Below are positions 51,586 to 60,920 of a DNA stretch of 64,000 nt, one piece after another. The stretch spans positions 1-64,000 of the forward strand of contig NZ_WJWY01000004.1 in the NCBI RefSeq assembly GCF_010367435.1, written 5' to 3'. The translations under genes and the position numbers were made by a program. Positions within the stretch are counted from its first letter, which is position 1. Each line of letters opens with the position of its first letter. A model generated the notes under the pieces. The model saw only the letters and a program-made list of their open reading frames with translations. It searched no databases and was not told where the DNA came from. This DNA is from Fusobacterium sp. IOR10 (lineage in GTDB: Bacteria > Fusobacteriota > Fusobacteriia > Fusobacteriales > Fusobacteriaceae).

Positions 51586-52530
51586 TTAACTTAATCTTCT
51601 CCATAAATGTAAAGTAATGTAACTTGGCTCTATGTTAAATGGTGTTCCACTACCTGAATAACCAATAGAAATGCTAGGTCGGGCTGAAGTAGTTACTCCA
51701 GACCAACTATTAGATGCTTTAAAATTAACAGTATATCCATAATCTGGACCTCCACCATTTCCGTTTCTATTACTTTTGCTTACACTAAATGCACCATTAC
51801 CGCTAATCCCACTTCCATTAATGGCTTCTACACCTGTCAATCGACCCTTTATATCCATAGTTCCTTTGCTATGTGTGTGAGCTGACTGACTAGCTGTATG
51901 CTTATGTTTTGGCATATTAGAAACAGATAAAGTTTTAGTATTACTTCCACCAGTTTGGCTAGATGTACTACCAGTTGCCGTTTTGATGTATTTTCCTTCT
52001 ATCTTTTTCCAAGTTGTATTAAGATATAATTGAGCTGGATTAGTAGGAACATCTAATAAAATACAACTTCCTATTGGTGGGATAGAATCCTTCCCTTATA
52101 AAGTTCCATCACTTTTAATTACTAAGTTTTTACCTATTTTAATTCCACCAATAACAGAAGTTGTTGCTTTTATTAAAGAATAAGGATTTTTTCCTTCTAA
52201 AGTTCCATCACTTTTAATTACTAAATTTTTACCTATTTTAACTCTTCCTAATGTAGTTGAATTTGCTTTCTTTACAACCTCGTCATTTACTTCTTTTAAA
52301 GCTTTTGCTGATATTGCTGTATTAGAATCATCTAAATCATTTCTATCTGTTATTTCTAGATTAAAGCCTGATTTCTTATCAATTTTAGGTTCTTTTTCAT
52401 CTATTTTATCTGATTGAGTATGTAACAAATTATCTATTGAATCAAAGTTATTGTTAATATTTTTTTCAACATCAACATATTCCTTCCATCCAGCCTTTAA
52501 AAATCCATAATATTTTGTAAGTACTCCCAT
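51586..52530 (-). pseudogene. Phage tail fibre gene broken by one in-frame stop codon
   Basis: The frame from ATG 52530 (after AAGGAGGG) would encode 314 residues but has TAA as codon 145 (52098-52096). Both sides are in the same frame: upstream ends with the repeat VIKSDGTL, downstream continues GKDSIPPIGSCILL and then His-rich MPKHKHTASQSAHTH and WSGVTTSARPSISIG, typical tail-fibre collar sequence. An earlier copy of the same repeat reads DGTLEGK, so GAA has become TAA. The N-terminal 144 residues may still be made; the C-terminal receptor-binding part (open from an internal ATG at 51915) would be lost unless the stop is read through. Confidence 0.85.
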
Positions 52531-53078
52531 TAAACACCCTCCTTTTCTTTTAATTCTTTCCATGTAAATTTATAACAATGTTCCCATGTTTTTTTTGATT
52601 CTTTCAACATTCCCCATGTTCTATAGATTATTCTAAATTTAATAGGTAAATGTGCTGGCTTAGCTTCTTCAATTGCAAATTTTAAAGTTTCAAGATTATA
52701 AGGAATCCCAACTATTGAGACAAATATAATATTTATCACTGCATCTGTAAAACATACTGTAACATTTCCATTTCTCCATGAATTAGCTATTTTTTGAAGT
52801 AAATCTAAATCACATTTACCTGCTATTTTCCATCTACCTGATATTTCTTCTCTTTTGTCTTCAATATTAATAGCTTGAGTTTTATATGCTAATTCATTTT
52901 CCATTGTAGCTATTCCAAATAATGACATTGTATCAAAATTTCTTTCTCTATCTAATTGATCCACTTTTTCATTTAAAATATCTAATTTATTTCCTGCACT
53001 TAAAAAAATTTCTTTTATATATTCATCTTTTCTAAACATTTTATGTATATTATTTTTTAAAGTATTGTAATTATTCAT
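52530..53078 (-). CDS. Phage tail protein, YmfQ/DUF2313-like
   Basis: A 182-residue baseplate-edge protein of the Mu gp48/YmfQ type, which lies between the baseplate J protein and the tail fibre. It has an ARNFDTMSLFGI-like start and a C-terminal GIPYNLETLKFAIEEAKPAHLP segment typical of the family. ATG 53078 overlaps the previous stop codon by 8 bp, and its own stop overlaps the fibre ATG by one base. A longer frame to 53111 would intrude further into the J-protein gene and is rejected. Confidence 0.82.
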   Translation of the reverse strand: MNNYNTLKNNIHKMFRKDEYIKEIFLSAGNKLDILNEKVDQLDRERNFDTMSLFGIATMENELAYKTQAINIEDKREEISGRWKIAGKCDLDLLQKIANSWRNGNVTVCFTDAVINIIFVSIVGIPYNLETLKFAIEEAKPAHLPIKFRIIYRTWGMLKESKKTWEHCYKFTWKELKEKEGV

Positions 53079-55922: not shown

Positions 55923-56333
55923 CTACCTCATTTTTTTAGGATTAAAGTATTCAGTCATTACTAATGAATATCCGACATCCTTATTTCTTTTTGAAAAAAA
56001 TTTAAAAGTATCAATTTTGCATTCCATATTAATTTGTACAACGGTTAATCCCGTTATAACTATTCTTAAAACTTTATATCTATTTCTTTTGAAAAACTCT
56101 AAACAAAGCGGAGATAAAAATACATTTCCAGGTAAAAAACTATAATATTTTGAAGGAAAAAAACTATTGATAGTAACTTTTCTTTTTGAACTATTGCCTG
56201 TAATATCTAACACTTGACCTTTTATATTCTCAAAACTTATTTTGTCTAATCCGTCTGAGATATTTATATCAGGTGGGATATAAGGGATCCGTAAAATATC
56301 CCTTGAATTATTTGTTGACAACCATATTTCCAT
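55923..56333 (-). CDS. Baseplate/tail protein at the XkdP position, without LysM
   Basis: A 136-residue protein just after the tape measure gene, where PBSX has XkdP (a tail protein with a C-terminal LysM domain). The N-terminal MEIWLSTNNSRDILRIPYIPPDI resembles the XkdP N-domain, but the LysM domain is missing. Likely a hub or tube-end component. Confidence 0.68.
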   Translation of the reverse strand: MEIWLSTNNSRDILRIPYIPPDINISDGLDKISFENIKGQVLDITGNSSKRKVTINSFFPSKYYSFLPGNVFLSPLCLEFFKRNRYKVLRIVITGLTVVQINMECKIDTFKFFSKRNKDVGYSLVMTEYFNPKKMR

Positions 56334-56336
56334 TTC

Positions 56337-58214
56337 CTATTTCACCCCCACTACGTTTGGAGCATTACTTTCAAATGCTTCCACAACTGCTTTTGATACT
56401 TTTTCCTTAAAGTCTTCCCAACCGTAAAAATCTCCATTCATATTAATAGTTATGTTAATATTTTTTGATGAATTAGAAACTTGATTTTTTGAATTAGAGA
56501 TAGAAGGAATAACTTTATCTTGCATTTTTATTTTTTTTAGCTTTGTAACTTCTTTTTCTTCAATATGTTTAGTCTTTACAATATTATTTTTATCAGAAAT
56601 TTCTTTTTGTATTTTATTGCTTTCATCTTTGGTTATAATAGATTTTTTTTCTGATACTTTTATTTCTGTATTCCCAATTCCTTTTATTTTATCTATAATT
56701 TTTCCAATTGCTTTAAATGGATTGAATAAAGCTTTCAGTATTTCACAAGTTCCTTTTACAGCCATTTTTATAATTTTCCAAATTCCATTAATTAGGTTTC
56801 TAAACCATTCAAATTTTTTATATAGAGCAATTACTAAAGGAATTGCCAAAGTAATACCTAAAACTATAAGTCCAAATGGATTTGCTTCCATAGCTAGGTT
56901 TAACATTAGCTGAGCTTCTTTTAGAGCTATTACAGTAGCCTTCCATGCTTTATATGCTTTAACAATTGTATAGATAGTTCCAACTTCTGCTAACAGAAAG
57001 GTTATTTCATCCTGATATTTGATAACCCAGTCCACAACACCTTTTATACTGCTAATCATACTATTAACTGCATTAGTAACTTGAGTCGCTATTTTGTCAA
57101 TAGTTCCATCTTCAAGCCATTTATTTAAGACTTCCACAACTTTTTTTAATTGGATTCTTAACTTATCATATAAACTTCCTTGTCTAGCTGTCCCATCTAT
57201 TTGCATTCCAATAATTTTAGCTAGTGAGAATTTAGTTACTCCCATAATAGTTGACCATAAACCTTTTACAGATGAAGCTTGTTTAGCAGCCCCACCCTCA
57301 AATTTTTCTCTTAAAAGTTTTTGTAAAACATCTTCTAATTTAGCTCTATCTAAAACTTGGCCTTTTTTATTAAAAACAATACCTTCTCCACACTCTTTAG
57401 CTGCTTTAGCCATTATCATTTCTTTTTTTATTCCAAACTGTGTTAGTCTTTCAAATTGTCCCATTGTTGCATCTACCATTGCTTCAGTTGCTTGATCTAT
57501 TGATTTATTTGTAGCCCCTGCCATATCAGCCACGTCAACAAGCCATTTAATTGAGGACATTCCCTGACTTTCCATTTTTGCTGTAGCTTCAACTACCTCT
57601 CCTGTTTCAAATGGAGTATTATTTGCAAATTTAATTGCATTAGCCATTAATTTTCCAGCTTTTTCTGTACTTTTAGTTGCTGTTTCAAGTTGTAATTTAT
57701 AGCCTTCTAAATTAAAGGCTTCTTTAAAACCTGTTACAACTCCTAATGTTCCTATAGCTGTTGCCAATGTTGCTATTGTTTTAACTGCTTTTTTTATAGT
57801 TTTAGTAATAGAATTATTTATTGTTGTTCCCATATTTTTTATTTTTTCTCTGGCTGCTTTTACAGCAAGTGAATTTTTTTTAAAAGCAAATGATAATTTA
57901 TTCAACTTTTCTTTTGAAGTTTTTAGTTTTAAATTAGTTTCTTGCGATTCCAACTTATATTTTTTTAATGCTATTCTTGCCTTTTTAACTTCAAGAGAAT
58001 TTTTTCCATAAGTTTTTTGTAATTCTCTAATTTTCATTTTTGCATTGTTTATTGTTTCTTGGTGCTTAACAGATACTATTTGAAGTTTTTCAACTGCTTT
58101 CTTAGCTAAGGTTACTTGTTCTTTAGCTTTTTTTATTTTACCAGCTGCAGCTTCCATTGGTTTGGACATTCTATCTTGTAACTTTAGTATTGTATTGATT
58201 ACTTTACTACTCAT
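56337..58214 (-). CDS. Phage tail tape measure protein
   Basis: A 625-residue protein with a long coiled-coil N-terminus (about 1-130), hydrophobic segments (about 140-165 and 430-475), and a TMP-core region (EGYKLQLETATKST through GQFERLTQFGIKKEMI near 170-270) that has the tape-measure family signature. It sets tail length. Its ATG overlaps the stop of the frameshifted tail chaperone by 4 bp (ATGA). The length predicts a fairly short tail for a myophage. Confidence 0.9.
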   Translation of the reverse strand: MSSKVINTILKLQDRMSKPMEAAAGKIKKAKEQVTLAKKAVEKLQIVSVKHQETINNAKMKIRELQKTYGKNSLEVKKARIALKKYKLESQETNLKLKTSKEKLNKLSFAFKKNSLAVKAAREKIKNMGTTINNSITKTIKKAVKTIATLATAIGTLGVVTGFKEAFNLEGYKLQLETATKSTEKAGKLMANAIKFANNTPFETGEVVEATAKMESQGMSSIKWLVDVADMAGATNKSIDQATEAMVDATMGQFERLTQFGIKKEMIMAKAAKECGEGIVFNKKGQVLDRAKLEDVLQKLLREKFEGGAAKQASSVKGLWSTIMGVTKFSLAKIIGMQIDGTARQGSLYDKLRIQLKKVVEVLNKWLEDGTIDKIATQVTNAVNSMISSIKGVVDWVIKYQDEITFLLAEVGTIYTIVKAYKAWKATVIALKEAQLMLNLAMEANPFGLIVLGITLAIPLVIALYKKFEWFRNLINGIWKIIKMAVKGTCEILKALFNPFKAIGKIIDKIKGIGNTEIKVSEKKSIITKDESNKIQKEISDKNNIVKTKHIEEKEVTKLKKIKMQDKVIPSISNSKNQVSNSSKNINITINMNGDFYGWEDFKEKVSKAVVEAFESNAPNVVGVK

Positions 58215-58905
58215 CTTTCACCTCCTAGAGCCGTTAAAAGATCATTCATTTTTTTATAGTCATAATTAACTTCTTCTTCTTTAATTACTTCTAGAGATTC
58301 TTTGAAAAATAATTTCTCTTCAAATTTAAGATTTAAAAGATATCCTAATGTAAATCCTTTTTGCAGATAATGAGCTACCCAATATAATTTACCTGGTTTT
58401 TCATCATCTCTAATTAGTTTTTTATTTCATCATCTAATATTTTTTTAGTTTTGCTTATTTCTTTACTGCCACCAAACTTTTCCATAATTTGTGAAGCTAT
58501 ATCTATAACTTGATCCCACCCAAAAATTTCAGTTGGAATATCAAAATTATGAATTCCAGGATATATGTTTCTAAGTTCTTTTGATTTTAAAAAGCTTGAA
58601 CAATTATACATAAGCTCGCTTGATGCCTTAATGACATGAGACAAATTTTTAATATCAATTTTTTGTGCTTCTTTTTCTTTATTTTTATCTTTTGGCTCTT
58701 CTGTTTTCCCATCTTTTGGTTCTTCTATATCTTTACCATCAATTATTTCATTGCTATTAGCTACTATTTCCAAATATTTAAATAAGTCTTCTGTTTTAGG
58801 TTTCATAAATTCTAGATATCCATAATTTTTAATATCAATTTGAATTAACTTTAATTTTTTTGCTTCATTTTCTTTAACTTTAACTAAAAAATCTTTCATT
58901 TCCAT
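58211..58905 (-). CDS. Tail assembly chaperone, predicted -1 frameshift product (gpGT type)
   Basis: The upstream frame (58905-58414, 163 residues) ends AAAAAC TAA within the slippery heptamer A AAA AAC. A -1 shift there enters a frame that stays open for 68 codons (LIRDDEKPGKLYWVAHYLQ...) up to TGA at 58213-58211, giving a 231-residue fusion. The -1 frame has no start codon or ribosome site of its own before the slip, and its stop overlaps the tape-measure ATG. Tail chaperone pairs made by a programmed frameshift just before the tape measure gene are conserved in tailed phages. No downstream RNA structure was demonstrated. Confidence 0.82.
58414..58905 (-). CDS. Tail assembly chaperone, unshifted product (XkdN/gpG type)
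   Basis: 163 residues, with a helical core and a charged linker (EEPKDGKTEEPKDKNKEKE, about 61-79). It resembles PBSX XkdN and acts as a chaperone for the tape measure protein during tail assembly. The ATG at 58905 follows AAAGGAG. Both this short form and a frameshifted longer form are expected, as for lambda gpG and gpGT. Confidence 0.82.
   Translation of the reverse strand: MEMKDFLVKVKENEAKKLKLIQIDIKNYGYLEFMKPKTEDLFKYLEIVANSNEIIDGKDIEEPKDGKTEEPKDKNKEKEAQKIDIKNLSHVIKASSELMYNCSSFLKSKELRNIYPGIHNFDIPTEIFGWDQVIDIASQIMEKFGGSKEISKTKKILDDEIKN
58417..58423 (-). other. Programmed -1 ribosomal frameshift slippery site (A AAA AAC)
   Basis: On the minus strand the zero-frame codons ATA AAA AAC TAA contain the canonical X XXY YYZ heptamer A AAA AAC (58423-58417) immediately before the stop codon. 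The heptamer is in the correct phase for tandem slippage, and the stop codon right after it would keep the ribosome on the site. Confidence 0.82.
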
Positions 58906-58952
58906 TTCTTTCTCCTTTTGTTAAAGGGGATACATGATCCCCTTTAAATTAA

Positions 58953-59354
58953 TTATTGTAATTCTTGAACATCTTCACATTCACCTTTTAATTCAACTTC
59001 TTGAACTTTTCTTTTTTCAAAATCAATTAAAGTTTCTTCATCAAAAGTTACTCCAATAGCTTTAAATCTTTTTTGTTTTTCTCCACTCATATTTTTATTA
59101 GCTAGAATAACATCAATATCATCACTACTAGAAAAAGCTTTAACATTTTCACTACCAATTTTCTTATAAGTTATAGCAATAGAAAATTTGTGTCCTACTT
59201 CTACTCTTGCATTTCCTCCAGTACTTAAAGGAACATCTTCATATTCTATTTGCTTACTAATAGATCCTTTAATAATTTGTCCGACTTGCTCCCCTCGAAC
59301 CCAAACATTCCCACTATTACCATTAAAAAAATCTGTTTTCTTTGTTTTTGCCAT
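58953..59354 (-). CDS. Phage tail tube protein (XkdM-like)
   Basis: A 133-residue tail tube protein with the family's beta-rich layout, including GNSGNVWVRGEQVGQIIKGS near 12-31 and LKGECEDVQ at the end. It follows the sheath gene by 18 bp, as XkdM follows XkdK in PBSX. It polymerises into the inner tube of the contractile tail. Confidence 0.87.
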   Translation of the reverse strand: MAKTKKTDFFNGNSGNVWVRGEQVGQIIKGSISKQIEYEDVPLSTGGNARVEVGHKFSIAITYKKIGSENVKAFSSSDDIDVILANKNMSGEKQKRFKAIGVTFDEETLIDFEKRKVQEVELKGECEDVQELQ

Positions 59355-59372
59355 TTTTTCACCTTCCTATTC

Positions 59373-60482
59373 CTAAACAGTAAATATTGGAAACAAAATT
59401 GATTCCATAATTCCTGGTATTTTAATTAATGTTGTTAAAAATATTTTTGTTCCTACAGTCATTTCCATAGCTTTTGTATCAGTCCACTCTTTTACAACTT
59501 CTTCTCCAAATTTAGAATAATTAGCTATTCTTTGAGCTGTAATATCAATTACAGCCCGATTATCAAATTTAGGATCCAATATCTTATCTATTGCTACAAG
59601 TTTAAAATATCCATTAACAGCCGATATAAATATCATTTGATTATCTAGATCATTAGAATATCTTCCTTTATAGTATTTATTCCAAGTACTATAAATGTCG
59701 CAAAATATTAAGTCCATTTTTTCAATAGTATTAATGAACGACATATCATTTGAAATACCTTCTCCAAGAGTTTTTAAAGAATTAACTCCTCTTGCTACCT
59801 TAACTTTCCCCTCATCGTTAAATAATATAAATTCACCATTAGAAATTGCTTCGTTTAAATCATCAATTTCAGAAACTGATGAAAATAGAGTCAAATCCTT
59901 AGCAATTGCCGACATTGTAAGAGGTAGCCCTGCAAGATATCCCATCAAGTATGAAACCGCTTCTATGCCGTTCTGTTCCCCTCTGCTATCTGAAAAAACA
60001 ACTTTTTCATTAGTTAAATTAATAATATGTTGATTGTCCGTAACTATCGCTTTATAAGAAAGTATTTTATATTTTTTGAAATTATTTTTTTCTTGAGAAG
60101 CTCCCCAAGAAACCAAATCATTTTGATGATCTTTATTTTGTGAAGCAATAGCCACCCAACAATTTCTTGGAATTCTTCCCGATACTAATTTTAATGTATC
60201 TGCTAATACTCCCTCTGTTGCCATTTTAAAAACTAGTAATTCTCTAGGTGTTCCTAAAAGAGCATCTTTTATATATCTGATGCTACTTTCTGTATAGTGA
60301 TCTTGCATTTTTGTAGTTAAATCTGCAATAGATATTATCTTATCCATTACTACACCTGCCCCATTGCTAGTATCATCAACTACTATTAATACTGCTGTTC
60401 CTCTATCACCTCTTTTTACTGCACTAGCTCCTAATGCCTTGAAGATGATTTCTAATTCAGGTAATCCATTTTGTGTTGCCAT
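59373..60482 (-). CDS. Phage tail sheath protein (XkdK-like)
   Basis: A 369-residue contractile sheath subunit. XkdK-type features: N-terminal MATQNGLPELEIIFKALG and RGDRGTAVLIV (about 22-32), IKDALLGTPRELLVFK near 70-85 and the AVIDITAQRIANYSKFGEEVV segment near 312. Its presence marks the phage as a myovirus or a phage-tail-like particle. It lies directly downstream of the tail-terminator gene. Confidence 0.92.
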   Translation of the reverse strand: MATQNGLPELEIIFKALGASAVKRGDRGTAVLIVVDDTSNGAGVVMDKIISIADLTTKMQDHYTESSIRYIKDALLGTPRELLVFKMATEGVLADTLKLVSGRIPRNCWVAIASQNKDHQNDLVSWGASQEKNNFKKYKILSYKAIVTDNQHIINLTNEKVVFSDSRGEQNGIEAVSYLMGYLAGLPLTMSAIAKDLTLFSSVSEIDDLNEAISNGEFILFNDEGKVKVARGVNSLKTLGEGISNDMSFINTIEKMDLIFCDIYSTWNKYYKGRYSNDLDNQMIFISAVNGYFKLVAIDKILDPKFDNRAVIDITAQRIANYSKFGEEVVKEWTDTKAMEMTVGTKIFLTTLIKIPGIMESILFPIFTV

Positions 60483-60485
60483 TAT

Positions 60486-60920
60486 TTACCCCCTTCTAAA
60501 CACAAGTTCTTGTGTTTTTTCTTTTTCTTCAACTGGTATTTCTTCTTCAAAATTAATATCAAAATCAAAATATAAAGTTTTATCTACTATTGAAGAATCA
60601 ATTTCTTCTATTTCTATATAAATTTTTTCTTTAATAATTAACATATTGTTATCCTGAAAAATTTCATTTAATTTTTCTAAAGTATCTAACAATTCTTCTT
60701 GATTAATTTCTTGATGTTTAGGAAAATAAACTATGTTTATAGTTGCTTCTGTTTCTCTAAATTTTTTCATTCCGTTTTTCACATTAACATCACTTGAATA
60801 AAATTTAAAACTAGGTCTTATAAATCCTTCTTTCATATCTTGAGATTGTATTTCTATTCCTGGAAAAGCAATAGTTAATTTTTCATGAATATTTTCCAGA
60901 ATGTTTTTTATAGTAATCAT
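60486..60920 (-). CDS. Phage tail terminator-like protein (DUF6838)
   Basis: A 144-residue protein at the head-tail junction, with a YFPKHQEINQEELLDTLEKLN segment typical of small tail-terminator proteins of this phage type. It follows the gp10-like gene and precedes the sheath gene. The function is inferred mostly from position. Confidence 0.7.
   Translation of the reverse strand: MITIKNILENIHEKLTIAFPGIEIQSQDMKEGFIRPSFKFYSSDVNVKNGMKKFRETEATINIVYFPKHQEINQEELLDTLEKLNEIFQDNNMLIIKEKIYIEIEEIDSSIVDKTLYFDFDINFEEEIPVEEKEKTQELVFRRG

Follow-up and report, generated by a model that had tools for sequence, protein, structure and literature searches.

A predicted programmed -1 frameshift in the XkdN-type tail assembly chaperone gene of a Fusobacterium prophage and in its relatives

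Tail module of the prophage and the two overlapping frames

The window analysed in this work is a stretch of 64,000 nucleotides from Fusobacterium sp. IOR10 (contig NZ_WJWY01000004.1, positions 1 to 64,000). Two overlapping open reading frames, designated G and T, are located between the tail tube gene and the tape measure gene of its prophage tail module. The features of the locus are listed in Table 1.

Table 1. Features of the G/T locus and of the neighbouring tail genes in the window.
Feature	Position	Strand	Evidence or remark
Tail sheath protein (contractile tail)	59373..60482	-	phrog_1480, E 2e-76; PF17482
Tail tube protein	58953..59354	-	directly upstream of G; PF09393, E 5e-8; phrog_365, E 1e-11
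Gene G, zero-frame tail assembly chaperone (XkdN type), 163 aa	58414..58905	-	open reading frame read; phrog_4976
Slippery heptamer A AAA AAC (putative)	58417..58423	-	in phase; abuts the zero-frame stop
T extension, -1 frame, 68 codons + TGA	58211..58417	-	open frame; protein-level conservation
Predicted stem-loop, 5' arm	58401..58409	-	begins 7 nt after the heptamer
Predicted stem-loop, 3' arm	58365..58373	-	own arm pairs better than 25/25 foreign arms
Tail tape measure protein, 625 aa	56337..58214	-	phrog_1272, E 3e-16; PF20155 weak

The G protein ends with ...DDEIKN and the last codons of the gene read ATA AAA AAC TAA on the minus strand. The heptamer AAAAAAC (58423-58417) is in the phase X XXY YYZ relative to the G frame, and the stop codon of G (TAA, 58416-58414) lies immediately 3' of it. 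From 58426 the -1 frame runs without interruption to a TGA at 58213-58211, which gives 71 codons from stop to stop and 68 codons from the C of the heptamer. No ATG, GTG, or TTG precedes codon 57 of these 68 in the T frame, where an ATG stands at 58249. The TGA of T and the start of the tape measure gene (ATG, 58214-58212) overlap in the sequence ATGA. The first-pass annotation had described this arrangement from the letters, namely a zero frame that ends in the heptamer in the right phase, a -1 frame of 68 codons without a start of its own, and its ATGA end over the tape measure start, and all of these are borne out. The uncalled gap of about 200 bp that it had noted between G and the tape measure gene measures 199 bases (58215-58413). 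An in-phase AAAAAAC at most 34 nt from the stop is found only in gene G among the 80 window ORFs of at least 80 aa; any X XXY YYZ heptamer at that distance is found in 20 of the 80.

The order of tube, G, T, and tape measure is kept in the relatives described below. Both in the window and in the annotated relatives, the chaperone gene has a tube gene of XkdM type on one side and the tape measure gene on the other, within an operon for a contractile tail. The nearest named relatives of the sheath protein (56%) come from Fusobacteriaceae contigs such as Cetobacterium. A window ORF near the tail-fibre region (52096-52563) contains the repeated motif IGKNLVIKSDGTL.

The G protein matches phrog_4976 (tail assembly chaperone) with an E value of 3e-8. 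Window G alone falls below the threshold of PF08890, which is matched by 24/37 and 34/51 of its aligned relatives, and the profile of 37 G relatives matches the YqbN structure 3klu (E 9e-15). Judged from these sequence matches, G is probably one of the XkdN-type chaperones, which serve the assembly of contractile tails like that of PBSX. The fold search with G gave no significant match (best 3fgx, E 0.41).

T is confidently predicted to be a small helical domain, where the AlphaFold2 model has three helices and a mean pLDDT of 88.6. No significant sequence or fold match of known function was obtained for T in the Pfam, PDB, and fold searches. The viral fold search gave no match at E of 0.001 or below (best 0.13, an uncharacterised protein), the PDB fold search gave a single weak row (Z 2.5), and the T profile against PDB sequences gave nothing below E 0.17.

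Conservation of the heptamer, the abutting stop, and the T frame

A search of phage records for close relatives by G or T sequence gave no match, at either the nucleotide or the protein level, and relatives were therefore gathered via the sheath protein and phrog_4976. Matches to phrog_4976 were identified in 26 of 96 genomes of the same order, which gave 30 loci that include the window itself (L024) and two copies in one genome (L015 and L030). A_AAA_AAC is present at the G end in 29 of these 30 loci, and the exception (L028) has a longer A run. Two other features were noticed in individual loci. A premature stop lies within G in two of the 29, L004 (G032) and L032 (G006), which keep the heptamer and T and are probably decaying prophages. 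A longer A run stands in place of A6C in L028, L099, L125, L127, and L135, where RNA polymerase slippage would be possible too. Ten phage records that were found through the sheath have A_AAA_AAC (nine records) or A_AAA_AAG (one record).

The collection made with the sheath profile consists of 160 loci, 80 from bacterial genomes and 80 from virus contigs. The chaperone profile was cut before the slip site, so that the 139 loci in which it detected a G ORF were found independently of the heptamer. An in-phase A6N near the G end and a -1 frame open from the heptamer past the G stop are both present in 139/139, and in 132 of them AAAAAAC is the heptamer closest to the stop. Among the 21 sheath loci without a profile-found chaperone, three have one with A6C on inspection (L133, L137, and L141) and nine have fewer than 900 bases after the sheath gene. 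No chaperone was found in the stretch read after the sheath in nine of the 21 (L091, L092, L126, L184, L196, L201, L212, L214, and L215). L126 carries a 342-aa ORF without a Pfam match (L126:5507-6532) after its tail tube gene, followed by a LysM gene; neither a chaperone nor a tape measure gene was recognised from the tail tube gene to the LysM gene of this locus. Across the same 160 loci, AAAAAAC near the stop is found in 134 of 141 chaperone ORFs and in 4 of 1534 other ORFs.

The 182 loci gathered were reduced to 179 with full flanks and to 134 after near-duplicate removal at 85%. These 134 non-redundant loci have AAAAAAC (126), AAAAAAA (4), AAAAAAG (3), or AAAAAAT (1), and their local GC ranges from 24 to 74%. 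For 40 of the loci the heptamer is no independent result because they were picked by A6N. Alignments A5 and A6 cover only a part of the sequences available: A5 has the window and 71 of the 99 T references listed, A6 the window and 50 of the 97 G references.

The mean column identity of the G proteins is only 22%, yet the terminal K is invariant and the N nearly so. Asn at the site is encoded by AAC in 126 of 127 cases, where 47.6 are expected from the same genes, and Lys by AAA in all 127, for which the expected number is 74.8.

In 106 of the 134 loci nothing separates the heptamer from the zero-frame stop, which lies one codon later in 24 others. T begins with a CTN codon in 117 loci. In 102 of these 117 it is CTA (79) or CTG (23), the two Leu codons that allow a stop right behind the heptamer, where the same genes predict 57.7. 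At other positions CTA is the least used of the CTN codons (167/1140). Prompt termination of the unshifted product thus looks selected, since CTA and CTG are over-used as the first T codon. The abutting stop may take part in slippage or in ratio control.

The T domains can be aligned across 39 relatives, with LI..D, YL.KG, and EK.F as the commonest residues. The T frame has a dN/dS of 0.163 over 31 independent pairs by a simple counting method, and its differences at codon positions 1, 2, and 3 number 194, 135, and 426 in these pairs. The codon-position pattern and a dN/dS of about 0.16 indicate that T evolves like translated sequence, and does so in the frame that a -1 slip would enter. The first-pass annotation had named conservation of this frame at the protein level among its points to check, and such conservation is present.

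Structure downstream of the heptamer

In the window, the predicted stem comprises 9 bp with -12.9 kcal/mol and a z of -3.21, and 0 of 200 dinucleotide shuffles are as stable. The window hairpin is not significant by codon resampling, where 130 of 500 recodings that keep the peptide reach the same stability.

The 134 loci were folded over 60 nt starting 5 nt after the heptamer and compared with dinucleotide shuffles. The mean z is -2.08, with 54% of the 134 below -2, against mean values of 0.03 upstream and -0.04 further downstream. The longest helices begin most often 5-8 nt past the heptamer. When the T peptide was held fixed and synonymous codons were resampled, the mean z over the 134 loci is -1.74, and at most 5% of samples are as stable in 72 of 134 loci; the controls reach this level in 13 of 132 loci and in 8 of 134. 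The own 3' arm beats all 25 foreign arms in 52 of 134 loci, where 5.2 are expected and the control region gives 11 of 134. In about half of the loci, the stem-loop after the heptamer exceeds what codon choice gives. Neither this stem-loop nor the apparent selection for an abutting stop is mentioned in the first-pass annotation.

Within the window subfamily (12 sequences), a 13-bp stem is 87% paired and three pairs are changed on both sides; the count of cells changed on both sides was reached by 12 of 500 shuffles. The compensatory changes in this subfamily are modest. Covariation is weak in a second subfamily (16 sequences, alignment A7), partly because row L112 had wrong coordinates and because the stem register varies. 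A search of 56000-60500 against Rfam gave no match.

A Shine-Dalgarno-like stimulator upstream was also considered. Tetramers of this type occur at -20 to -7 in 60 of 134 loci; for the three control windows upstream the counts are 34, 41, and 15 of 134. This candidate was set aside and is not claimed because purine-rich coding may account for the excess of tetramers.

Interpretation and comparison with known systems

Taken with the gene order and the phase of the heptamer, the conserved site and the selection on the T frame support the proposal of the first-pass annotation, a programmed -1 frameshift in the tail chaperone gene. Judged from sequence, G and T very probably form one such recoded gene of a PBSX/XkdN-type prophage, with G and a G-T fusion as its products. 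Two tail assembly chaperones would then be made from one start site in a prophage with a contractile tail of PBSX/XkdN type. The majority of ribosomes would read G and terminate at the TAA behind the heptamer. A minority would be delayed by the stem-loop 7 nt downstream and would move on A AAA AAC one base back onto AAA AAA, then read CTA ATT and onwards. The slipped ribosomes would add the helical T domain of 68 residues, which gives the G-T fusion. The occurrence and efficiency of slippage and the parts played by G and GT are inferred. According to PMC5009743, the lambda G protein attaches to the tape measure protein, and T brings in the tube subunit. In analogy to this, G would coat the tape measure protein of the prophage and T would recruit the tail tube subunit, so that the ratio of G to GT would set tail assembly. 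Against the proposed slippage, A_AAA_AAC is much less prone to shift than A_AAA_AAG in E. coli (PMC5009743). The codon resampling of the window hairpin, the modest or weak compensatory changes, the PF08890 result for window G, and the searches with T, which gave no significant match of known function, also count against the proposal.

That T is a separate protein, made by reinitiation or from its own start after the G stop, is very unlikely. An ATG or GTG is present near the T start in some relatives (e.g. L019, L063-L065, and L067), and depositors have annotated such T ORFs as separate hypothetical proteins, as in L063, L064, L067, and L068, where T is listed from an internal start. The late first start codon of the window T speaks against this explanation, as does T in L005, L026, and L072, which contains no ATG, GTG, or TTG at all. 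A separate T would also leave the near-invariant heptamer, the AAC codon, and the stem-loop unexplained.

Slippage of RNA polymerase on the A run, where edited transcripts would give the fusion, is similarly improbable. A run of six A is present and the loci with longer A runs named above would favour it. Six A are short for efficient polymerase slippage, however, and the sites are almost all exactly A6C regardless of genome GC. The phase and a stem-loop at ribosomal spacing fit ribosomal slippage instead. A decaying gene or a sequencing error that split one former frame is scarcely credible: T does lie in frame -1 directly after G, and G is broken in L004 and L032, but the split recurs with the in-phase A6N heptamer in all 139 profile-found chaperone ORFs and is also found in a virus contig of the same phage (L002 and L073), T is under purifying selection, and no unbroken G-T frame was found among the relative loci examined.

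The proposed ribosomal frameshift at this locus resembles the G/GT system of lambda. Xu, Hendrix and Duda reportedly described the lambda G/GT -1 frameshift in 2004, with counterparts in tailed phages. The lambda slippery site is GGGAAAG. In both systems, two overlapping ORFs are flanked by the genes for the major tail protein and the tape measure protein, T lacks its own start, and a heptamer for -1 slippage is located near the G end. Unlike lambda, the tail here is contractile, the heptamer is A_AAA_AAC with a stop directly behind, and T has no sequence match to an annotated T domain. PMC5009743 describes the G/GT frameshift upstream of the tape measure gene as conserved among tailed phages. 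The XkdN-like chaperones (PF08890 Phage_TAC_5, YqbN 3klu) are probably the family of G, as judged by profile, and have neighbours of XkdK/XkdM type, and the Pfam PF08890 and PDB 3klu entries cover G only, without T.

The same heptamer has been proposed in other settings. A possible AAAAAAC slippery site is tentatively given for the G/GT genes of the Paenibacillus larvae phage Dragolir, which shares it with the window and belongs to a different phage group (PMC6003738). For the archaeal virus HCTV-2, A_AAA_AAC is proposed in PMC5009743. Bacterial IS elements and dnaX have A_AAA_AAN heptamers with stem-loops, according to PMC4066793 and PMC5009743; the heptamer type, and often a structure 5-8 nt downstream, are shared with the window, whereas the genes differ and the dnaX site is A_AAA_AAG. 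No frameshift report for the XkdN family was found in the open-access literature, and an earlier notice elsewhere is possible.

The kind of system is thus known and ordinary (G/GT), and the addition of this work is that the XkdN chaperones share one near-invariant cassette, with a signal that is unusually uniform across the family. We consider it likely that a standard recoding cassette is common, at 24-74% GC, to XkdN-type phages and prophages with contractile tails whose hosts are Fusobacteriota and Firmicutes. The cassette would consist of A_AAA_AAC, a selected abutting stop that may act in slippage or ratio control, and a stem-loop 5-8 nt downstream. The T domains of this cassette would include phrog_10264, phrog_2722, and others, and its GT protein would be missing from annotation. 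The family is a natural recoding experiment because the heptamer is near fixed while composition, T, and stem sequence vary, and it could show how much the weak A_AAA_AAC site, the abutting stop, and the stem-loop each contribute.

Several PHROGs of unknown function match the T domains encoded in the -1 frame behind XkdN-type chaperones (alignments A1 and A5), among them phrog_10264, phrog_2722, phrog_33439, phrog_20560, phrog_10943, and phrog_5646. These families are probably the T halves of frameshift products because of these matches, which gives a probable role to protein families that are now filed as unknown. Across the whole family, the cassette would also yield a second product from a gene behind which plain gene callers leave a gap. 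None of the nine annotated phage records has a joined G-T entry, and L065, L066, L069, L071, and L072 have no T-frame entry. One record, L069 (PP511318.1, Dulem virus 31), has Microviridae in its taxonomy line, yet its sheath, tube, chaperone, and tape measure genes are those of a phage with a contractile tail, and this label is probably wrong.
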